Positions 8,363-60,444 of a DNA stretch of 64,000 nucleotides are shown here, piece by piece (position 1 is the stretch's first letter; each line of letters starts with the position of its first letter). The translations under genes were made by a program, and so were the position numbers. Location of the stretch: positions 1,895,501 to 1,959,500 of the forward strand of contig NZ_AP019697.1 of assembly GCF_007164725.1 (NCBI RefSeq), given 5' to 3'. This stretch comes from Dialister hominis (GTDB lineage: Bacteria > Bacillota > Negativicutes > Veillonellales > Dialisteraceae). Under the pieces are notes generated by a model. That model worked only from the letters and a program-made list of their open reading frames with translations, did not search any database and was not told the DNA's origin.

Positions 8363-8585
8363 AAAGCACCCTTCAGCGCAGACTGAAAGGTGCATGGGAC
8401 ATGCAGACGTCAATACGCGCAACTCTTGCTCCTTTTTTGGCGTAAAAGGGCGCAAAAAGAGCGCGGTCTTTGATGAGTATCCTTTCTGTCTCGGTCTAAA
8501 AAGATCCAAGCAGCTGACAATCCATCCATTCAAAATATAAAACCGAAAAGTATAACTCACGTAACGTGATGCTATCTTTTGCCTC
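8359..8585 (-). ncRNA. Candidate small RNA or leader RNA, minus strand
   Basis: A good minus-strand promoter (TTGCTA complement at 8615-8620, TATGAT complement at 8592-8597, 17-bp spacer) faces a strong minus-strand terminator (GCACC.TTCAG stem at 8366-8393 followed by seven Ts at 8359-8365). Nothing between them looks coding. The about 227-nt transcript could be a free-standing small RNA, or a former leader of panC separated from it by the MITE. No known riboswitch consensus was recognised. Confidence 0.45.
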
Positions 8586-25203: not shown

Positions 25204-25356
25204 TGAAAGAAATTATCAGATTTCTTTACATTTCCTTTTGACAAAGTCTATTATTGTCACACTAAAAGTTATAATTAGGATAAGAAGGAAAAATGCATGA
25301 CACAGATGAATCCTTCTTAAAGATAATCATACGTTGATGAAGAAGGGATGAAGGAA

Positions 25357-26244
25357 ATGAAGTACGGAGTATCGGGGACAGGCGATGTGGGACATGTCAT
25401 CGCAAGCAAATTAATCGACCTCGGCCATGAAGTCATGATGGGTGCCAGAAGTGCATCGAGCGAAAAAGCGCAGAAATGGGCTGAAGAACATGGCAGCCAT
25501 GCCTATTACGGAACATTTGAAGATGCTGCCAAATTCGGGGAACGCGTCTTCAACTGCACGCAGGGAATTCATGCTATCGAAGCACTGGAACTGGCAGGAA
25601 AAGATCACCTCAATGGAAAAATTCTGATTGACACTTCGAATCCATTCCACTATGAAGACGGCCATATTTCCCTTGATCCTAAGTACAGCGGAAACACAAG
25701 CCTTGGCGAAGAAATCCAGAAATTTCTCCCAGAGACCAGAGTGGTAAAAACCCTGAACTACATCGGCAGCTCCATGATGGATTTCAATTATGATGATAAT
25801 GACTCTGACTATGCTCCCTTTACTGCTTTCTACTGCGGCAACGACTCTGATGCCAAGAGGGAGACAGCCATACTCCTCTATGACTTCGGCTGGCGAGACC
25901 TCCTGGATATCGGAGACATTTCCATGTCCCGCTATACGGAGATGCTGGGCGCTTTTTGGGTACCGCTCTATAAGAAATTTAATTCCATGAAATGGGGCTT
26001 CGCATTATCCAGAAACTTTGAAAAAACGCCGGAAAAAATTGCCTTATCAAGAGGATACCTGGGAGCAAAGCCTACGGGGAAAAAATGGCATGGTCACGAG
26101 ATCTATATACCGATTCCCAATCCCGCACATAAACAGCCGGAGGGCATCGATATGAAACAATATATCCTTGATGGTGATGGCACAAATAATATTTGTACAG
26201 ATCTGCAAGGTGATATGACTAAAGCTCTTAATGATGAAAATTAA
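25357..26244 (+). CDS. NADP(H)-binding oxidoreductase, F420-dependent NADP reductase-like
   Basis: About 295 residues. The N-terminal Rossmann motif is YGVSGTGDVGHVIASKLIDLGHEV with MMGARSAS for the NADP phosphate. Mid-protein DTSNPFHYEDGH and VVKTLNYIGSSMM match the F420:NADP oxidoreductase fold. Organisms of this type normally lack F420, so the partner is likely another small molecule. ATG at 25357 is preferred to 25348 because GAAGGG then has proper spacing. Confidence 0.75.
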   Translation: MKYGVSGTGDVGHVIASKLIDLGHEVMMGARSASSEKAQKWAEEHGSHAYYGTFEDAAKFGERVFNCTQGIHAIEALELAGKDHLNGKILIDTSNPFHYEDGHISLDPKYSGNTSLGEEIQKFLPETRVVKTLNYIGSSMMDFNYDDNDSDYAPFTAFYCGNDSDAKRETAILLYDFGWRDLLDIGDISMSRYTEMLGAFWVPLYKKFNSMKWGFALSRNFEKTPEKIALSRGYLGAKPTGKKWHGHEIYIPIPNPAHKQPEGIDMKQYILDGDGTNNICTDLQGDMTKALNDEN

Positions 26245-26269
26245 GTGAACGAAACAAAATAGGGTAAAA

Positions 26270-26317
26270 GAACACCGCTGCATGACTTGGAATGAGCCAT
26301 ACAGCGGTGCTTTTTTA
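26270..26317. terminator. Terminator between convergent genes
   Basis: ACACCGCTG...CAGCGGTGC hairpin followed by T6. Confidence 0.85.
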
Positions 26318-26329
26318 GTATCCTTCGCC

Positions 26330-26728
26330 TTACCGGATATTCAATTCTTTAATCAGTGCCTGCTGGAGGACATTTGAGAAATTGACGCCTTTTTCCTGCG
26401 CCATCGTATCAAGCCACTGCGGGATGCTCAGCGTCTTCTTGATGGCTTTTGTATCGTACTTTCTCCGATACGCCAGTGTATCCGCTTTGACCAAAGTGAC
26501 GATATCATCTTTGTTTTCTTTATGCACCTCATTGATTGGCGTCGGAGACGGTGCTGAAATGTGATTTTCTTCCATATCCCAGAGCATCAATGTCAGTGCA
26601 TCTTCTGCCATCTCGCAGCATTCCTGAATCGTTTCTCCCTGAGAAAGACAGCCCTCTATATCCGGAAAGGAAATCGTATACCCGCCCTCCGGTTCAGCAT
26701 GAAAAACAGCTGGATAAACATATTTCAT
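26330..26728 (-). CDS. HicB-family antitoxin-like protein (orphan)
   Basis: 132 residues. The N-terminal RNase H-like HicB fold reads YPAVFHAEPEGGYTISFPDIEGCLSQGETIQE, and the C-terminus (TKAIKKTLSIPQWLDTMAQEKGVNFSNVLQQAL) is a ribbon-helix-helix DNA-binding segment. HicB neutralises the mRNA-cleaving HicA toxin. No HicA-sized frame is visible on either side, so this is a solitary copy. ATG at 26728 follows GGAGGGATT. Confidence 0.82.
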   Translation of the reverse strand: MKYVYPAVFHAEPEGGYTISFPDIEGCLSQGETIQECCEMAEDALTLMLWDMEENHISAPSPTPINEVHKENKDDIVTLVKADTLAYRRKYDTKAIKKTLSIPQWLDTMAQEKGVNFSNVLQQALIKELNIR

Positions 26729-26880
26729 GAGAATCCCTCCATCGCACCATTTTCTTTATTATATACGTAATCATACGTATCGAAAACAGGACGAATCCTC
26801 TCAGGATATCATCATCCGCCCCGCTTAAACATTTCTTTGCCTGAATTAAAGAAAATTTTAGGAATTGTTTGCATTGAGTC

Positions 26881-26917
26881 AATCACCTCATGGTATCTTT
26901 ATTTCATCGAGGTGATT
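26881..26917 (+). promoter_or_regulatory. Nine-bp inverted repeat around the -10 region and ribosome binding site of the first PAP2 gene
   Basis: AATCACCTC (26881-26889) is the exact complement of GAGGTGATT (26909-26917), which contains the ribosome binding site. An extended -10 (TGGTATCTT, 26891-26899) sits between. The second PAP2 gene keeps the same layout with CACCTC at 27665 and GAGGTG at 27695 around TGATATACT. Because the left arm precedes the -10, an operator is more likely than an RNA hairpin. Confidence 0.45.
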
Positions 26918-27517
26918 ACCATATTTGCACTGAACAATTTTGATATAGGAGTCCTGTACCTGATCCAGGACTCCCTCCGCTCGCCGATTCTGACGAGCTT
27001 TCTGGAATTCATGACTGACCTGGGGAATAACGGCTATGTCTGGATCGCCCTTGCCGTCCTTCTGATGACCATCAGGAAATGCAGAAAAGCAGGACTTACG
27101 ACGATGCTCGCGCTTGTCATCAATGTCATTCTTGCCAACGGCATCCTGAAGCACCTGGTCCAGCGTCCCCGCCCCTTTGACACCTACGGCGGCCTTCAGG
27201 TCCTGATCCACCGCCCGGCCGACTGGTCCTTCCCGTCCGGCCATGCATCAGCGTCCTTCGCTGCTGCTTTCGTCCTCTACCATTACCTGCCGAAGAAATT
27301 CAGCATTGTTATGTTCGTTCTCGCCGCGCTCATCTCCTTCTCGAGACTTTACCTCGGCGTCCACTATCCCACCGACGTCTTCGCCGGCGTATTCGTCGGA
27401 TACTTCTCCGCATGGCTCTCTGAAAAGATCACCGGCTTCTTCGGCAAAGACACAGGAACCAAAGTCACCGCCATCATGGCCAAACGCCCCGGCAGGAAAT
27501 CTGCCGAGAATGCGTGA
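26912..27517 (+). CDS. PAP2-type phosphatase, first of a tandem pair, unusual start
   Basis: Membrane phosphatidic acid phosphatase-like protein of about 200 residues. The three-part PAP2 signature is visible as KHLVQRPRPFD, PSGHASASFAA and SRLYLGVHYPTDV. The neighbour at 27708 aligns from its first residue (MFAFDNFEIG), but here the matching codon at 26921 is ATA, 4 bases after GAGGTGATT. The GTG at 26912 lies inside that ribosome binding site. The long frame back to 26837 lacks any start signal. Either ATA is used or the gene is poorly translated. Confidence 0.8.
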   Translation: MITIFALNNFDIGVLYLIQDSLRSPILTSFLEFMTDLGNNGYVWIALAVLLMTIRKCRKAGLTTMLALVINVILANGILKHLVQRPRPFDTYGGLQVLIHRPADWSFPSGHASASFAAAFVLYHYLPKKFSIVMFVLAALISFSRLYLGVHYPTDVFAGVFVGYFSAWLSEKITGFFGKDTGTKVTAIMAKRPGRKSAENA

Positions 27518-27554
27518 CCATTTTATCGCATAGATGATTAATTCCAACCCCTCC

Positions 27555-27602
27555 GAAAAAAGGAACCGTGAAAGAAAGCGATACCTTCACAGCTCCTTTT
27601 TT
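27555..27602 (+). terminator. Terminator after the first PAP2 gene
   Basis: AAAGGA..GTGAA...TTCAC..TCCTTTTTT hairpin. Confidence 0.75.
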
Positions 27603-27707
27603 CAATGCAGGAAACCCCTCCCATATTTAAACAAAATTTTATCGTTTATTAGATTTTCAGAAAGCACCTCATGATATACTTAAAATGACGAAACGAGGTG
27701 ATGGCAG

Positions 27708-28292
27708 ATGTTCGCTTTTGATAACTTTGAAATAGGCGCGCTTTACCTGATTCAGGACTTCATGCGCACTCCGAAGCTGACGGATTTCCTGGAATCCATG
27801 ACGGATCTGGGAAATGCGGGCTTCATCTGGCTGGCTCTCGCCATCGTCCTCATCTGCACGAAGAAATACAGGAAGGTCGGGTATGCCACTTTTCTATCCC
27901 TGGCAATGAACCTCATCCTGACGAACGGCATCCTGAAGCATATTTTCAAAAGGGCCCGCCCCTTTGACACGTATCCGGATCTGCAGCCGCTCATCCATGA
28001 GCCGACGGACTGGTCGTTCCCATCCGGCCATTCCTCTGCTTCCTTTGCCGCTGCTTTCGTCCTCTACCATTACATGCCGAAGAAATTCAGCATTCCTGCG
28101 CTCATCCTCGCCACGCTCATCGCCTTCTCGAGGCTTTACCTTGGCGTCCACTACCCCAGCGACGTCATCGGAGGCGCCGCAATCGGCTACCTCACCGCCT
28201 GGGCGTCTGAAAAATTCATGACCTACACGGAGAAAAAAACGGGCGCGAAATCGCAAAATCTGGCTCATAAGAAAAGGGCAGAAAGCGCATGA
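27708..28292 (+). CDS. PAP2-type phosphatase, second of the tandem pair
   Basis: 194 residues, a clear duplicate of the preceding gene. Motifs are KHIFKRARPFD, PSGHSSASFAA and SRLYLGVHYPSDV, with about five hydrophobic helices. Likely substrates are undecaprenyl pyrophosphate or phosphatidyl phosphates at the cytoplasmic membrane. ATG at 27708 follows GAGGTGATG, and an extended -10 (TGATATACT) lies at 27672-27680. It has its own promoter and terminator, so the pair is not an operon. Confidence 0.88.
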   Translation: MFAFDNFEIGALYLIQDFMRTPKLTDFLESMTDLGNAGFIWLALAIVLICTKKYRKVGYATFLSLAMNLILTNGILKHIFKRARPFDTYPDLQPLIHEPTDWSFPSGHSSASFAAAFVLYHYMPKKFSIPALILATLIAFSRLYLGVHYPSDVIGGAAIGYLTAWASEKFMTYTEKKTGAKSQNLAHKKRAESA

Positions 28293-28321
28293 ATTTCCAC
28301 TACCATCCAATTCATAAAAAG

Positions 28322-28366
28322 AAGCCGTAAAGAGACAAAAAATCCCGTCTTTTACGGCTTTTTTCA
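28322..28366 (+). terminator. Terminator after the second PAP2 gene
   Basis: GCCGTAAA...TTTACGGC hairpin and T6. Confidence 0.85.
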
Positions 28367-28459
28367 TGTCTATTCTTCCTGCGTCTGACACCCATTTCAA
28401 ACTTCATAAAAACTTTAAAATCTATTATATTTCATGAAAAAAATTCCATGTATATTATA

Positions 28460-28787
28460 GTCAGGCGAAAGCAAAGGAGCCTAAAAGGAAATAAGGCATC
28501 ATCCGGAATACCCCGGAGCACCTCCCTGGAACCTGCCTGCGGCGCCATATCGCAGGTCGCTTCTCTTTCGCTGATACATTCCACAGCCAAATGTTTTGAA
28601 GGCCGTTAACTTCTGCCAGCACCACCTTCCGCAGGCAGGAGCCTTCCCAATTGTCCGGCGCGCCCACGCCCAGGACACGGCCGAAAGAATCAACTGGCTG
28701 GATCCATCCTATGGTCCGGACTCCCGAACGCCGGACCTGGAGAGACAGGTGCTCCCACATTTCCTGTCTCTCCGTATCACTCTTTTT
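28460..28787 (+). ncRNA. Candidate large structured RNA of unknown class
   Basis: A 330-bp GC-rich stretch with no coding frame but many stems. An 11-bp perfect inverted repeat pairs CCTGCCTGCGG (28532-28542) with CCGCAGGCAGG (28629-28639). Nested hairpins are GCCT...AGGC (28479-28497), CCGG...CCGG, GGAG cac CTCC, CCTGCG...CGCAGG (28539-28557) and GGTCCGG...CCGGACC (28713-28737). It ends in an 11-bp terminator stem GGAGAGACAGG/CCTGTCTCTCC followed by T5. A TATTAT box at 28453-28458 could start it. RNase P, tmRNA, SRP and T-box signatures were not found. Confidence 0.5.
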
Positions 28788-28810
28788 CCAAACTACCTTT
28801 CAAAAACGAA

Positions 28811-28860
28811 AACGGACCCTGTTTCTGGAGTTTCCACCAGAGCAGGGTCCGTTTTCAATT
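28811..28860. terminator. Bidirectional terminator of tetR-type gene and the structured RNA region
   Basis: AACGGACCCTG...CAGGGTCCGTT (11-bp perfect stem) with T tracts on both strands. Confidence 0.85.
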
Positions 28861-28862
28861 GT

Positions 28863-29465
28863 TTATTCTTCAATATAAGCACCGAGAAGGTTGTCTATAT
28901 CCGTCTTCGCATAGACATCGGCATCAGCCACGATGTCCCATTCGCCATTCATCATGCACCAGATCGTGAGGACGCCGAAGAAATGGCTCATCAGCAGTTT
29001 GGAGAGCATATCGAGCGGGGCATCTGCACGGAGCTCGCCTTTTCCCTTGCCAAGGCCGGTCACGAAGATATCCATGACCGTATTGCGGATGCCGTCGAGG
29101 CATTCCCTCGTCCGGGAATCCGGCGTTTCCGCCTCCATCGTTTCCTTCATCCACTGGCGCACCAGGCGCACGCCCGACCAGGAAGCATCCTTGTAAAGCT
29201 CGATGAAGTAGTAAAGGCAGCGTTCCCTGACGTCTCCGTCATAATCGATCGCCTTCTTGATGATGGTCTGGATCGACTGGAAGGAAAGCTCCGCCACGAC
29301 CTCTTCCTTGCATTCGAAATAGTGGTAGAATGTACCCTTCGCCACGCCGCTGTCTTTTGTGATATCCTCTACAGACACGTGGTCAAATCCTCTCTCACTA
29401 ATCAGCCGTCTTGCGGATTCCAAGAGCCTTGAACGCGTCTTTTCCGCCTTCTTCGTTAAAGCCAT
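28863..29465 (-). CDS. TetR/AcrR family transcriptional regulator
   Basis: 200 residues. The N-terminal helix-turn-helix reads ARRLISERGFDHVSVEDITKDSGVAKGTFYHYF, then an all-helical ligand-binding dimerisation domain. ATG at 29465 follows GAGGAGGCATC. No efflux or enzyme gene is adjacent on the same strand, so its target is not evident. The facing gene at 29762 (MetE-like) is a possible one. Confidence 0.9.
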   Translation of the reverse strand: MALTKKAEKTRSRLLESARRLISERGFDHVSVEDITKDSGVAKGTFYHYFECKEEVVAELSFQSIQTIIKKAIDYDGDVRERCLYYFIELYKDASWSGVRLVRQWMKETMEAETPDSRTRECLDGIRNTVMDIFVTGLGKGKGELRADAPLDMLSKLLMSHFFGVLTIWCMMNGEWDIVADADVYAKTDIDNLLGAYIEE

Positions 29466-29671
29466 GATGCCTCCTCACTGTCACTAAGCATACTATTTCT
29501 TACAGTATACTAAAAAAGCATTTGTCTTGCAATGACTTATGGTCAATTTCTATAGCCGGTCACTTCCCTGTCAGGAAAACGCATCGTTTCTATTTCGATA
29601 AAAATCATAATAGATTGCGAAAATGCCAACCTTGAATACCCCCTATTTCCTTGAGAGCCATCCTCATTCAA

Positions 29672-29724
29672 TGCTATACTTGAATTACCCGGCAGCGGGA
29701 AATCCCGCGATCTGCCGTTTTTCG
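29672..29724 (+). promoter_or_regulatory. Leader of the MetE-like gene: -10 box and terminator-like hairpin
   Basis: A TATACT box (29674-29679) is followed by the hairpin CGGCAGCGGGA aa TCCCGCGATCTGCCG (29692-29720) and T5. The hairpin lies about 40 bp before the start codon and looks like an intrinsic terminator, which suggests attenuation. A competing stem was not found. Confidence 0.5.
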
Positions 29725-29761
29725 AATCAATAGATTCCGAGTACTGAGAGGATGTGTCCAT

Positions 29762-30880
29762 ATGGGAACAAGAAACGTACCGCCGTTCCGCAATGACGTC
29801 GTAGGAAGCTTCCTGCGTCCACAAGTCATTCATGAAGCGCGCCGCAATCTGGAAGCAGGCAAAATCACAGCTTCCGAACTTCGCCAAATCGAAGACGAAG
29901 AAATCAAGAAACTTGTCGCCAAGGAAATCGAAAATGGTCTCCATGCCGTGACCGACGGAGAATTCCGCCGCACTTACTGGCATCTGGACTTCCTTGAAAA
30001 CCTTGAAGGAGTAGAAAAGGTCAAGGCCGAAGAATGGTCCGTCCATTTCAAAGGCCACCAGCCCAAAGCCGCTACCGTGAAGATCACCGGCAAAATCGGC
30101 TTCGGCGATCACCCCTTCGTCAAAGACTTCGAATACCTGAAGAGCGTCGCAGGAGACACCATGGCCAAGATGACCATCCCGTCCCCGAGCATGCTCCACC
30201 TCATCTGCTGCGTCCGCGAAGAAAACTACCAGCCGATCGACCTTTACAAGAACGAAGATGACCTCTACAGAGACATTGCCCTCGCTTATCAGGAAGCCAT
30301 CCGCACCTTCTACAAAGCAGGCTGCCGCTACCTCCAGTTCGACGATACCTCCTGGGGCGAATTCTGCGATCCTGACAAGAGAAAAGCCTACGAAGCAAGA
30401 GGCCTTGATCTCGACAAGATCGAAAAGAACTACGTGAAAATGATCAACCTCGCCCTCGAAGCCAAACCAGCTGACATGAAAATCACCATGCACATCTGCC
30501 GCGGCAACTTCAGATCCACCTGGTTCTCCTCCGGCGGATACGACCCGGTCGCTGAAATCCTCTTCGGCCACTGCAACATCGACGGATTCTTCCTCGAATA
30601 CGACTCCGACCGCGCAGGCGGCTTCGAACCGCTGAAGTACATCCAGAAACAGCAGGTCGTCCTCGGCCTCATCACCTCCAAATTCCCGCAGCTCGAGAAA
30701 TTTGAAGACGTCAAGGCACGCGTAGAAGAAGCCTCCCAGTACGTCCCCAAAGACCAGCTCTGCCTGAGCCCCCAGTGCGGCTTCGCCTCCACCGAAGAAG
30801 GCAACGCCCTCACCGAAGAAGAACAATGGGCCAAAGTCAGACTCATCCGCGACTACGCAGATAAAATCTGGGGAGAATAA
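29762..30880 (+). CDS. Cobalamin-independent methionine synthase-like protein (YxjG/YxjH type)
   Basis: 372 residues, equal to the C-terminal catalytic half of MetE. The start GTRNVPPFRNDVVGSFLRP, the mid-protein CRYLQFDDTSWGEFCD and the zinc site MHICRGNFR (His, Cys) with LSPQCGFAST (second Cys) are visible. It would transfer a methyl group to homocysteine or a related thiol; without the N-terminal MetE domain the methyl donor is uncertain. The codon choice is unusually uniform and GC-rich in its second half. Confidence 0.88.
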   Translation: MGTRNVPPFRNDVVGSFLRPQVIHEARRNLEAGKITASELRQIEDEEIKKLVAKEIENGLHAVTDGEFRRTYWHLDFLENLEGVEKVKAEEWSVHFKGHQPKAATVKITGKIGFGDHPFVKDFEYLKSVAGDTMAKMTIPSPSMLHLICCVREENYQPIDLYKNEDDLYRDIALAYQEAIRTFYKAGCRYLQFDDTSWGEFCDPDKRKAYEARGLDLDKIEKNYVKMINLALEAKPADMKITMHICRGNFRSTWFSSGGYDPVAEILFGHCNIDGFFLEYDSDRAGGFEPLKYIQKQQVVLGLITSKFPQLEKFEDVKARVEEASQYVPKDQLCLSPQCGFASTEEGNALTEEEQWAKVRLIRDYADKIWGE

Positions 30881-30897
30881 AAGAATCAACCTGGAAC

Positions 30898-30928
30898 AAA
30901 AAAGGGACTCGAAAGAGTCCTTTTTTTG
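30898..30928 (+). terminator. Terminator after the MetE-like gene
   Basis: AAAAAAGGGACTC gaaa GAGTCCTTTTTTT. Confidence 0.92.
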
Positions 30929-30949
30929 ATGCGGGAAATCGAAAATAGC

Positions 30950-31115
30950 GGTGAACGCCAAAGTGGAAGACCTTTCACCTTGCCCTGGAAGGGAAGGTGC
31001 CCGGCCATAAATTCTGATGCCGGGCGGATGAGTTGCATTTCCTCAAGGCGCTCGCCTTGGTTTTATGGTTTTCAAAGAGGGTTGATTTCCTCGGACAAAG
31101 TCCGGTTGTATGATT
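30950..31115. repeat. Palindromic repeat cluster
   Basis: Contains CCTTGCCCTGGAAGGGAAGG, the GGCGGATGAGTTGCATTTCC unit (also at 519 and, inverted, 52805) and CGGACAAAGTCCGGTTGTAT. Confidence 0.7.
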
Positions 31116-31243
31116 TTCTCCTTCTCTCCTTAAAGAAAATTTTTCCCTCTCTCTCCTCTCGACAGTTCCTGTCATCCTTTTCCTTATAATGAAGATAGCA
31201 AACCAGACCGATGAACCACTGTCAAACGAAAGGAGAACCCATC

Positions 31244-31978
31244 ATGAAAACCGTACAAAAAGAACTTATCGCCAAACGCCAGGAAATCGAAGAAAAATTA
31301 CAAACCATCCTATACGAAGACGAAAAACTCGAACTCCTCTATTGCGGCCGCCAATACGCCTCCGCCTATGCCCTCATACGAAGAAAAGACGGCATGTACT
31401 ACAGCTTCCGCTTCAGCGACCACAAAACCACGCCCTATTACTCAAGCAAAACCTTCGACATATACGCGCCGATCACGGGCGAAGTCCTAAGAAATATACG
31501 AGAAACCCTGGACAAAGTCTCATGGTGTCCCTTCACCCTATACGACTACCTCACCCTCCGCACCATCTACTATTTCAATAACCTGAGACAGCCCTTCTGT
31601 ATCGACAACACCATGAACATCTTCGTAGGCAACAAAATGGGCCTCCTCTTCTACCGCAGAAAACGCATCGGAAAAGACAACTGGGAATTCGAAACCGTCT
31701 CCGAATCCTTCCAAAAAGAACTAAGAAAACTCTTCGCCACAGGCCTCCTGCACGCCTATACCTGCAAGAAAACCAGAAGCATCCAGGTCTACATCACCGA
31801 AGCCGGCCTATCCATGATCAAAGACACCGACCTCGAAAACAACAACTTCGTCAAACACTACCTCCAATTCAAAACCGACCCCACATTCTCCAGCTGCCTC
31901 CAGCTCCCGACACAAAACAAAAAATACAAACCCTTCCGCTCCCCCATGGACAATCCGCCAGAACAAATGGTGGAATGA
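31244..31978 (+). CDS. Hypothetical protein, 244 residues
   Basis: No family recognised. The N-terminal 25 residues form a charged helix (KELIAKRQEIEEKLQTIL), followed by a compact, aromatic-rich domain (YCGRQYASAYALIRRKDGMYYSFRFSDHKTTPYYSS) and a basic stretch (MGLLFYRRKRIGKDNWEF). There is no signal peptide or membrane helix. ATG at 31244 follows AAAGGAGAACCC. Its C-terminus runs to a terminator at 32005. It marks the left edge of the accessory island. Confidence 0.75.
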   Translation: MKTVQKELIAKRQEIEEKLQTILYEDEKLELLYCGRQYASAYALIRRKDGMYYSFRFSDHKTTPYYSSKTFDIYAPITGEVLRNIRETLDKVSWCPFTLYDYLTLRTIYYFNNLRQPFCIDNTMNIFVGNKMGLLFYRRKRIGKDNWEFETVSESFQKELRKLFATGLLHAYTCKKTRSIQVYITEAGLSMIKDTDLENNNFVKHYLQFKTDPTFSSCLQLPTQNKKYKPFRSPMDNPPEQMVE

Positions 31979-32004
31979 AAGGAAGCGTAAGGATCCAACC
32001 ACAG

Positions 32005-32030
32005 AAAAAGACCCGCGAGGGTCTTTTTTC
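32005..32030 (+). terminator. Terminator after the hypothetical gene
   Basis: AAAAAGACCC gcga GGGTCTTTTTT. Confidence 0.9.
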
Positions 32031-32035
32031 TTGGA

Positions 32036-32275
32036 AGATATGAGAAGATTGCTTTTCAGGGCCGAAGGCCGGTTTGCCTATTTTCCCTTTGCGAAGCAAA
32101 TAAGTGGTGTTAACCTTCCCAGACGGGGAAGGAGGGCCACGAAGTGGCGGTTAGGGTTGATTTCCGCGAGCGCAGCGAGTACCCGCCTTCCCAGACGGGG
32201 AAGGCGCCCGAAGGGCGGATAGGGTTGATTTTCCTGGACAAAGTTCGATCCCATGGTTTTCTCTTTTCTCCCCTC
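32036..32275. repeat. Palindromic repeat cluster
   Basis: Two CTTCCCAGACGGGGAAGG units (32118 and 32189), each followed by a variable short palindrome and TAGGGTTGATTT, plus GGCCGAAGGCCGG and CGCGAGCGCAGCGAG. The duplicated order shows tandem amplification of the unit. Confidence 0.75.
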
Positions 32276-32419
32276 AAAAATTTTTCGCCTTTTCCCCCCC
32301 AATCTTCCCGAACACTATAGTCATTTATATTAGATATATATATAAATTATTTATATATTCTGGTAATTAGTCTTGGCGCTAGAATAAGTTTAGATAATTA
32401 CTAAAAGGAGATGCTCTCG

Positions 32420-46674: not shown

Positions 46675-46687
46675 AAAATGGAAATAA

Positions 46688-46733
46688 AAAAGGGGCTATG
46701 ACAAAATGTGCAATCATTTTGCCACAGCCCCTT
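46688..46733 (+). terminator. Terminator after the YbjN-like gene
   Basis: AAGGGGCTATGACAAAATG/CATTTTG.CACAGCCCCTT long hairpin. Confidence 0.85.
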
Positions 46734-60346: not shown

Positions 60347-60393
60347 GAAGGGGGCTGTGGCAAAATGGTTAATCATTTTGCCACAGCCTCTTT
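60347..60393 (+). terminator. Terminator after rnj
   Basis: GGGGCTGTGGCAAAATG gttaat CATTTTGCCACAGCCTCTTTT, a member of the long terminator family. Confidence 0.92.
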
Positions 60394-60444
60394 TGTATTG
60401 GAAAATCCCGTCAGAGGATTATCTAACAATTATATGCCTTTTGT

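Follow-up and report, generated by a model that had tools for sequence, protein, structure and literature searches.

The intergenic region at 28460-28787 of the window (the whole 64 kb stretch of Dialister hominis DNA that was analysed) raises the question of whether it specifies a structured RNA of its own, and if so of what kind. A preliminary description had proposed here a large multi-stem RNA of no recognised class. The region lies between two ordinary genes, and a very A+T-rich sequence, with only 18% G+C in 28401-28450, is followed from about 28460 on by one rich in G+C. The features of the locus are as follows.

27708-28292, plus strand: PAP2-type phosphatase gene (Pfam PF01569), upstream neighbour of the candidate
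28318-28364, plus strand: terminator-like hairpin (AAAGAAGCCGTAAA / TTTACGGCTTTTTT), recognised from an inverted repeat and the sequence, closing the PAP2 gene
28403-28431, plus strand: promoter candidate TTCATA-17-TATATT, from a promoter scan
28453-28458, plus strand: -10-like TATTAT, read from the sequence within the AT-rich region 28403-28461
28460-28787, plus strand: candidate element, intergenic, about 325 bases
28808-28856, both strands: strong terminator-like hairpin (inverted repeat; folding z -7.9), common to the candidate and the TetR gene
28863-29465, minus strand: TetR regulator gene, downstream neighbour, convergent with the candidate

The terminator-like hairpin at 28318-28364 sets the candidate apart from the upstream PAP2 gene, and the bidirectional hairpin at 28808-28856 is likely, from its predicted folding, to form the 3′ end of a plus-strand transcript, which would then be about 395 nt long. 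About 440 bp lie between these two hairpins as a block of their own. Since the candidate is bounded by the PAP2 terminator-like hairpin on one side and the hairpin at the TetR end on the other, it is neither the leader nor the tail of either gene, and its independence from the flanking genes is shown by position. In the same neighbourhood, two PAP2 phosphatase genes duplicated in tandem (26837-27517 and 27708-28292) shared 73% DNA identity over 491 bp, and in the other family members searched they had distant relatives only (best protein identity 36-37%); a HicB-like antitoxin (PF15919) was encoded at 26330-26728.

Folding of the plus strand of 28460-28787 gave -127.2 kcal/mol, compared with -98.7 +/- 5.9 for shuffled sequences (z -4.81, n = 100), and none of the 100 shuffles folded as well. 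The minus strand reached a z of -2.62, and with the 3′ hairpin omitted the values were -3.6 on the plus and -1.15 on the minus strand. The centroid coincided with the minimum-energy structure, and most helices had a mean pair probability above 0.9. Perfect inverted repeats were also in excess, with seven 9-mer matches versus 0.25 expected, a number that none of 2000 shuffles reached. Matches of 11 bases numbered two versus 0.015 expected (P 0.003, shuffles). The elements of the predicted fold, all from fold prediction, were the following.

28464-28572, plus strand: Domain I (alone z -2.1, modest)
28464-28471/28565-28572 and 28475-28480/28559-28564, plus strand: bipartite 14-bp helix closing Domain I
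28502-28517 and 28535-28557, plus strand: hairpins of Domain I
28573-28778, plus strand: Domain II, closed by GAUAC/GUAUC (28573-28577/28774-28778)
28584-28700, plus strand: branched arm of Domain II (alone z -4.7)
28713-28737, plus strand: Domain II hairpin GGUCCGG/CCGGACC
28739-28773, plus strand: Domain II hairpin with an 11-bp stem and a loop of 13 nt rich in C (UGCUCCCACAUUU), forming with a probability of about 1

The folding surplus sat mostly in the branched arm and in the two 3′ hairpins (z -5.3 for the latter). A stable fold of the plus strand is thus shown at the level of prediction, and the multiple stems of the preliminary description were borne out as two well-defined domains. 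The 11-bp long-range helix that it had included fared differently. Its arms (28532-28542/28629-28639) are indeed perfectly complementary, but the helix had an ensemble probability of about 5e-9 and forcing it cost 14.7 kcal/mol, because each arm is engaged in a local hairpin of greater stability. A switch between the long-range and the local pairing was rejected as well, the two states being 14.7 kcal/mol apart.

Signals for transcription were less distinct. The plausible -10 box noted earlier is present as TATTAT at 28453-28458, which would put the start at about 28464, that is, at the beginning of the first helix, but the -35 paired with it was poor, and the promoter scan returned three sites, all weak matches, versus 0.9 expected. 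At the other end, the 11-bp stem that had been taken for a terminator (28739-28749/28763-28773) was missing from the list of the terminator scan; it is not a canonical terminator, because it has no adjacent U-tract, the sequence TCTTTTT starting 8 bases later.

The region had also been described as having no coding frame. A frame does exist, an antisense ORF of 99 aa at 28461-28760 on the minus strand, which covers almost all of the block and whose ATG is preceded, at a distance of 9 bases, by a GGAG, and on these grounds the locus could be a gene for a small protein. What stood of the earlier statement is that no coding signal was detected by codon score in any frame of the candidate. The 99-aa ORF scored -0.18, compared with +0.2 to +0.5 for most long ORFs in the window; ORFs of at least 90 aa arose in 5.5% of the shuffles of the region; searches of Pfam, NCBIfam and PHROG gave no match to the candidate's frames; and tblastn with the 99-aa ORF returned its own locus only. 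Having neither a coding signal nor a homologous protein, the small protein gene was rejected as an explanation and is regarded as very improbable.

A diverged copy of a known RNA, such as 6S, SRP, RNase P or tmRNA, a T-box or a riboswitch, would agree with the similar size and the terminator-flanked position. However, Rfam gave nothing at the gathering score for the candidate, and only sub-threshold chance matches up to an E value of 5, so the assignment to no recognised class held even under permissive settings. The genome possesses 6S RNA (RF00013) at C1:893764-893943, SRP RNA (RF00169) at C1:704378-704477 and RNase P RNA (RF00010) at C1:1073101-1073448, all three above cut-off and at a distance from the candidate, which was not matched by any of their covariance models. 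The candidate is therefore not the 6S, SRP or RNase P RNA of this organism; the lack of RNase P and SRP signatures reported before agrees with these findings, and that of tmRNA and T-box signatures with the nil result in Rfam. A riboswitch or T-box is further opposed by the lack of a plus-strand gene close downstream to control. Descent from a known RNA family is thus the least credible of the explanations weighed, with hardly any probability left to it. The sole Rfam match of the window was a pan motif (RF01749) at 8482-8578 on the minus strand (54.8 bits), and a literature search on Dialister ncRNAs found nothing relevant.

Relatives of the candidate were sought by several routes. It was single copy in its own genome, and DNA searches found no homolog in 80 relatives, in five other Dialister genomes or in 61 genomes of the order, no match in plasmids, and just short fragments (34 nt or less) in 12 family genomes at E values up to 10. 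IMG/VR contained no match to either of two exact 20-mers or to the pattern of the 3′ hairpin. No credible match was obtained with a full-length covariance model in the order (61 genomes) and the family, and a second model, restricted to the branched arm of Domain II, gave none in 380 genomes of the class, both models being built on effectively one sequence, so that strongly diverged relatives would escape them. The only match of the full-length model with an E value below 0.01, in D. succinatiphilus, was a 103-nt partial one on the antisense strand within a coding gene beside parB, and was rejected. The TetR protein of the locus shared about 61% identity with that of D. succinatiphilus YIT 11850; in D. 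succinatiphilus and a Dialister MAG, the TetR ortholog had different surroundings, close to rsmG, and no candidate adjoined it. With effectively one sequence and no homologs, no covariation could be counted, and since no homolog appeared in other Dialister, the family, the order or beyond, these searches give no sign that the structure has been under selection.

One match was found in the phage collection, MT837459.1, deposited in GenBank as "Bacteriophage sp." (UNVERIFIED, human faeces). As this entry is colinear with 25267-32316 of the window and carries the PAP2 and TetR genes, it is a mislabelled Dialister host contig, a near-identical piece of this chromosome, and a phage origin of the candidate was rejected. 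It showed zero differences from the window over 28462-28999; this identity is no proof of constraint, because 27613-28380 was likewise identical, and depletion of SNPs was not used as evidence of constraint since the adjacent coding DNA was equally free of them.

The restriction to one species raises the alternative that the block is non-functional intergenic DNA, a decayed gene, a mobile-element remnant or foreign G+C-rich DNA, with an incidental fold. Besides the single copy missing from all relatives searched and the weak promoter matches, this is favoured by the folding baseline. On a fixed-sd scale, with the baseline confined to 182 other segments of the same length from the 64 kb sequence, two of the 182 folded more extremely than the candidate and several others similarly, those inspected among the extreme ones owing their energy to dispersed hairpins and repeats; the folding number of the candidate is unusual but not unique. 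Against an incidental fold stand the strand-specific surplus and the well-defined ensemble, the neat fit between two terminator-like hairpins, the lack of any trace of a protein in all frames, and the intact state of the block in a second, independently sequenced copy. Taken together, non-functional DNA is a serious possibility.

As for repeats elsewhere in the window, a dispersed intergenic repeat around AAACCATACAACC was present in seven copies (at most one mismatch) versus 0.09 expected, at 551-971, 18944, 31059-31116 and 60590, the copies inspected lying in long, hairpin-rich intergenic regions. Intergenic hairpins of the form (G)GCTGTG..CACAGC with an A+T-rich centre occurred at 60350-60395, 46680-46729 and L033:2110-2150, in this genome and in D. 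succinatiphilus; their sequences have the appearance of a dispersed family of terminators or repeats. A strict pattern for this hairpin found no copy within the window, and blast matches joined 46680-46729 of the window to L032 and L033.

The unpaired parts of the predicted fold bear on what such an RNA could do. On the plus strand, they were mostly pyrimidine-rich, namely GCACCUC (28518-28524), ACCACCUUCC, CCUUCCCAAU, UCCAUCCUAU, UCCCGAAC and CUCCCACAUUU, and UCCC occurred fully unpaired at three sites.

28645-28648, plus strand: UCCC in a multiloop
28722-28725, plus strand: UCCC in an apical loop
28753-28756, plus strand: UCCC in an apical loop

Unpaired UCC occurred seven times versus a mean of 2.9 in folded shuffles (reached by 5 of 600), and unpaired UCCC three times versus a mean of 0.85 (reached by 28 of 600, a weak enrichment), both on a statistic chosen post hoc, after the loops had been seen, and on a strand that is C-rich (108 C, 76 G). 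Accessible UCCC loops are a reported signature of Gram-positive anti-Shine-Dalgarno sRNAs, and RNAIII, RsaE, LhrC and others contact Shine-Dalgarno regions via such loops (PMC4132741, PMC3861533). The predicted fold likewise exposes UCCC and other C-rich motifs in its loops, as judged post hoc. Thus, by analogy, the most likely function of the RNA, if it is made, would be that of a translational regulator acting through C-rich loops, because unpaired UCC is enriched by that post hoc count.

The location in a hairpin-bounded block of its own and the strand-specific folding favour a stand-alone RNA on the plus strand. We therefore tentatively prefer to regard the candidate as a lineage-specific regulatory sRNA, a reading to which we give a little less than an even chance. 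Transcription would start near 28464 or, if the upstream promoter candidate were used, near 28438, run through the two compact domains and end at the shared hairpin at 28808-28856. Acting in trans, the RNA may offer its three unpaired UCCC sites and GCACCUC to the Shine-Dalgarno regions of target mRNAs, and base-pairing at the ribosome-binding sites would block translation of the targets in a manner similar to that of RNAIII, RsaE and LhrC.

Alternatively, the RNA might act via its fold, as a protein-binding scaffold or in a ribozyme-like manner, rather than by base-pairing, and represent a new class of large ncRNA. Its size, the two compact domains, the z value of the branched arm and the nil result in Rfam would suit such a class. 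Large structured RNA classes are, however, normally conserved across genera, and no relative emerged from the order with the full-length model or from the class with the arm model; we consider this alternative unlikely. An undescribed class of large two-domain ncRNA confined to one Dialister lineage, with an autonomous fold and serving as a multi-loop translational regulator or an RNA-protein scaffold, is likewise doubtful. The earlier suggestion of something undescribed is accordingly not upheld for a class, since only one species is known to carry the element, and it had no relative in the family or order genomes searched. The sRNA interpretation is preferred in the following form: the locus is most suitably regarded as a candidate for a regulatory RNA specific to the species, plausible and unproven, not as an established new class.

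If transcribed, the candidate would add a regulatory RNA confined to one lineage within a genus common in the human gut. It would also exemplify a large, well-folded RNA without detectable relatives, a kind that ncRNA discovery by comparison is bound to miss. Should it not be transcribed, it would warn that for intergenic DNA rich in G+C, strong folding statistics are insufficient. OLE, ROOL, GOLLD and raiA are large structured bacterial ncRNAs of several hundred nucleotides with multi-branched folds. The candidate is similar to them in having several hundred nucleotides and a multi-branched fold, but it has no Rfam match and no conservation past the species. It also resembles the orphan motifs of GC-IGR screens for ncRNAs, which select such long, G+C-rich intergenic regions, in combining a region of this type with a stable fold and the absence of any known RNA, whereas many representatives, often with covariation, are available for those motifs and the candidate comes from a single species (PMC8632094, PMC6429828). 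With RNAIII of Staphylococcus aureus, RsaE, LhrC, SprD and FsrA it shares no sequence or covariance similarity, as indicated by the absence of an Rfam match, and its host belongs to the Negativicutes, in contrast to the Bacilli of the RNAIII-type UCCC-loop sRNAs. Nevertheless, it is similar to these sRNAs in being a stand-alone structured RNA, here predicted from the sequence, with UCCC in several accessible loops (PMC3861533, PMC4132741).
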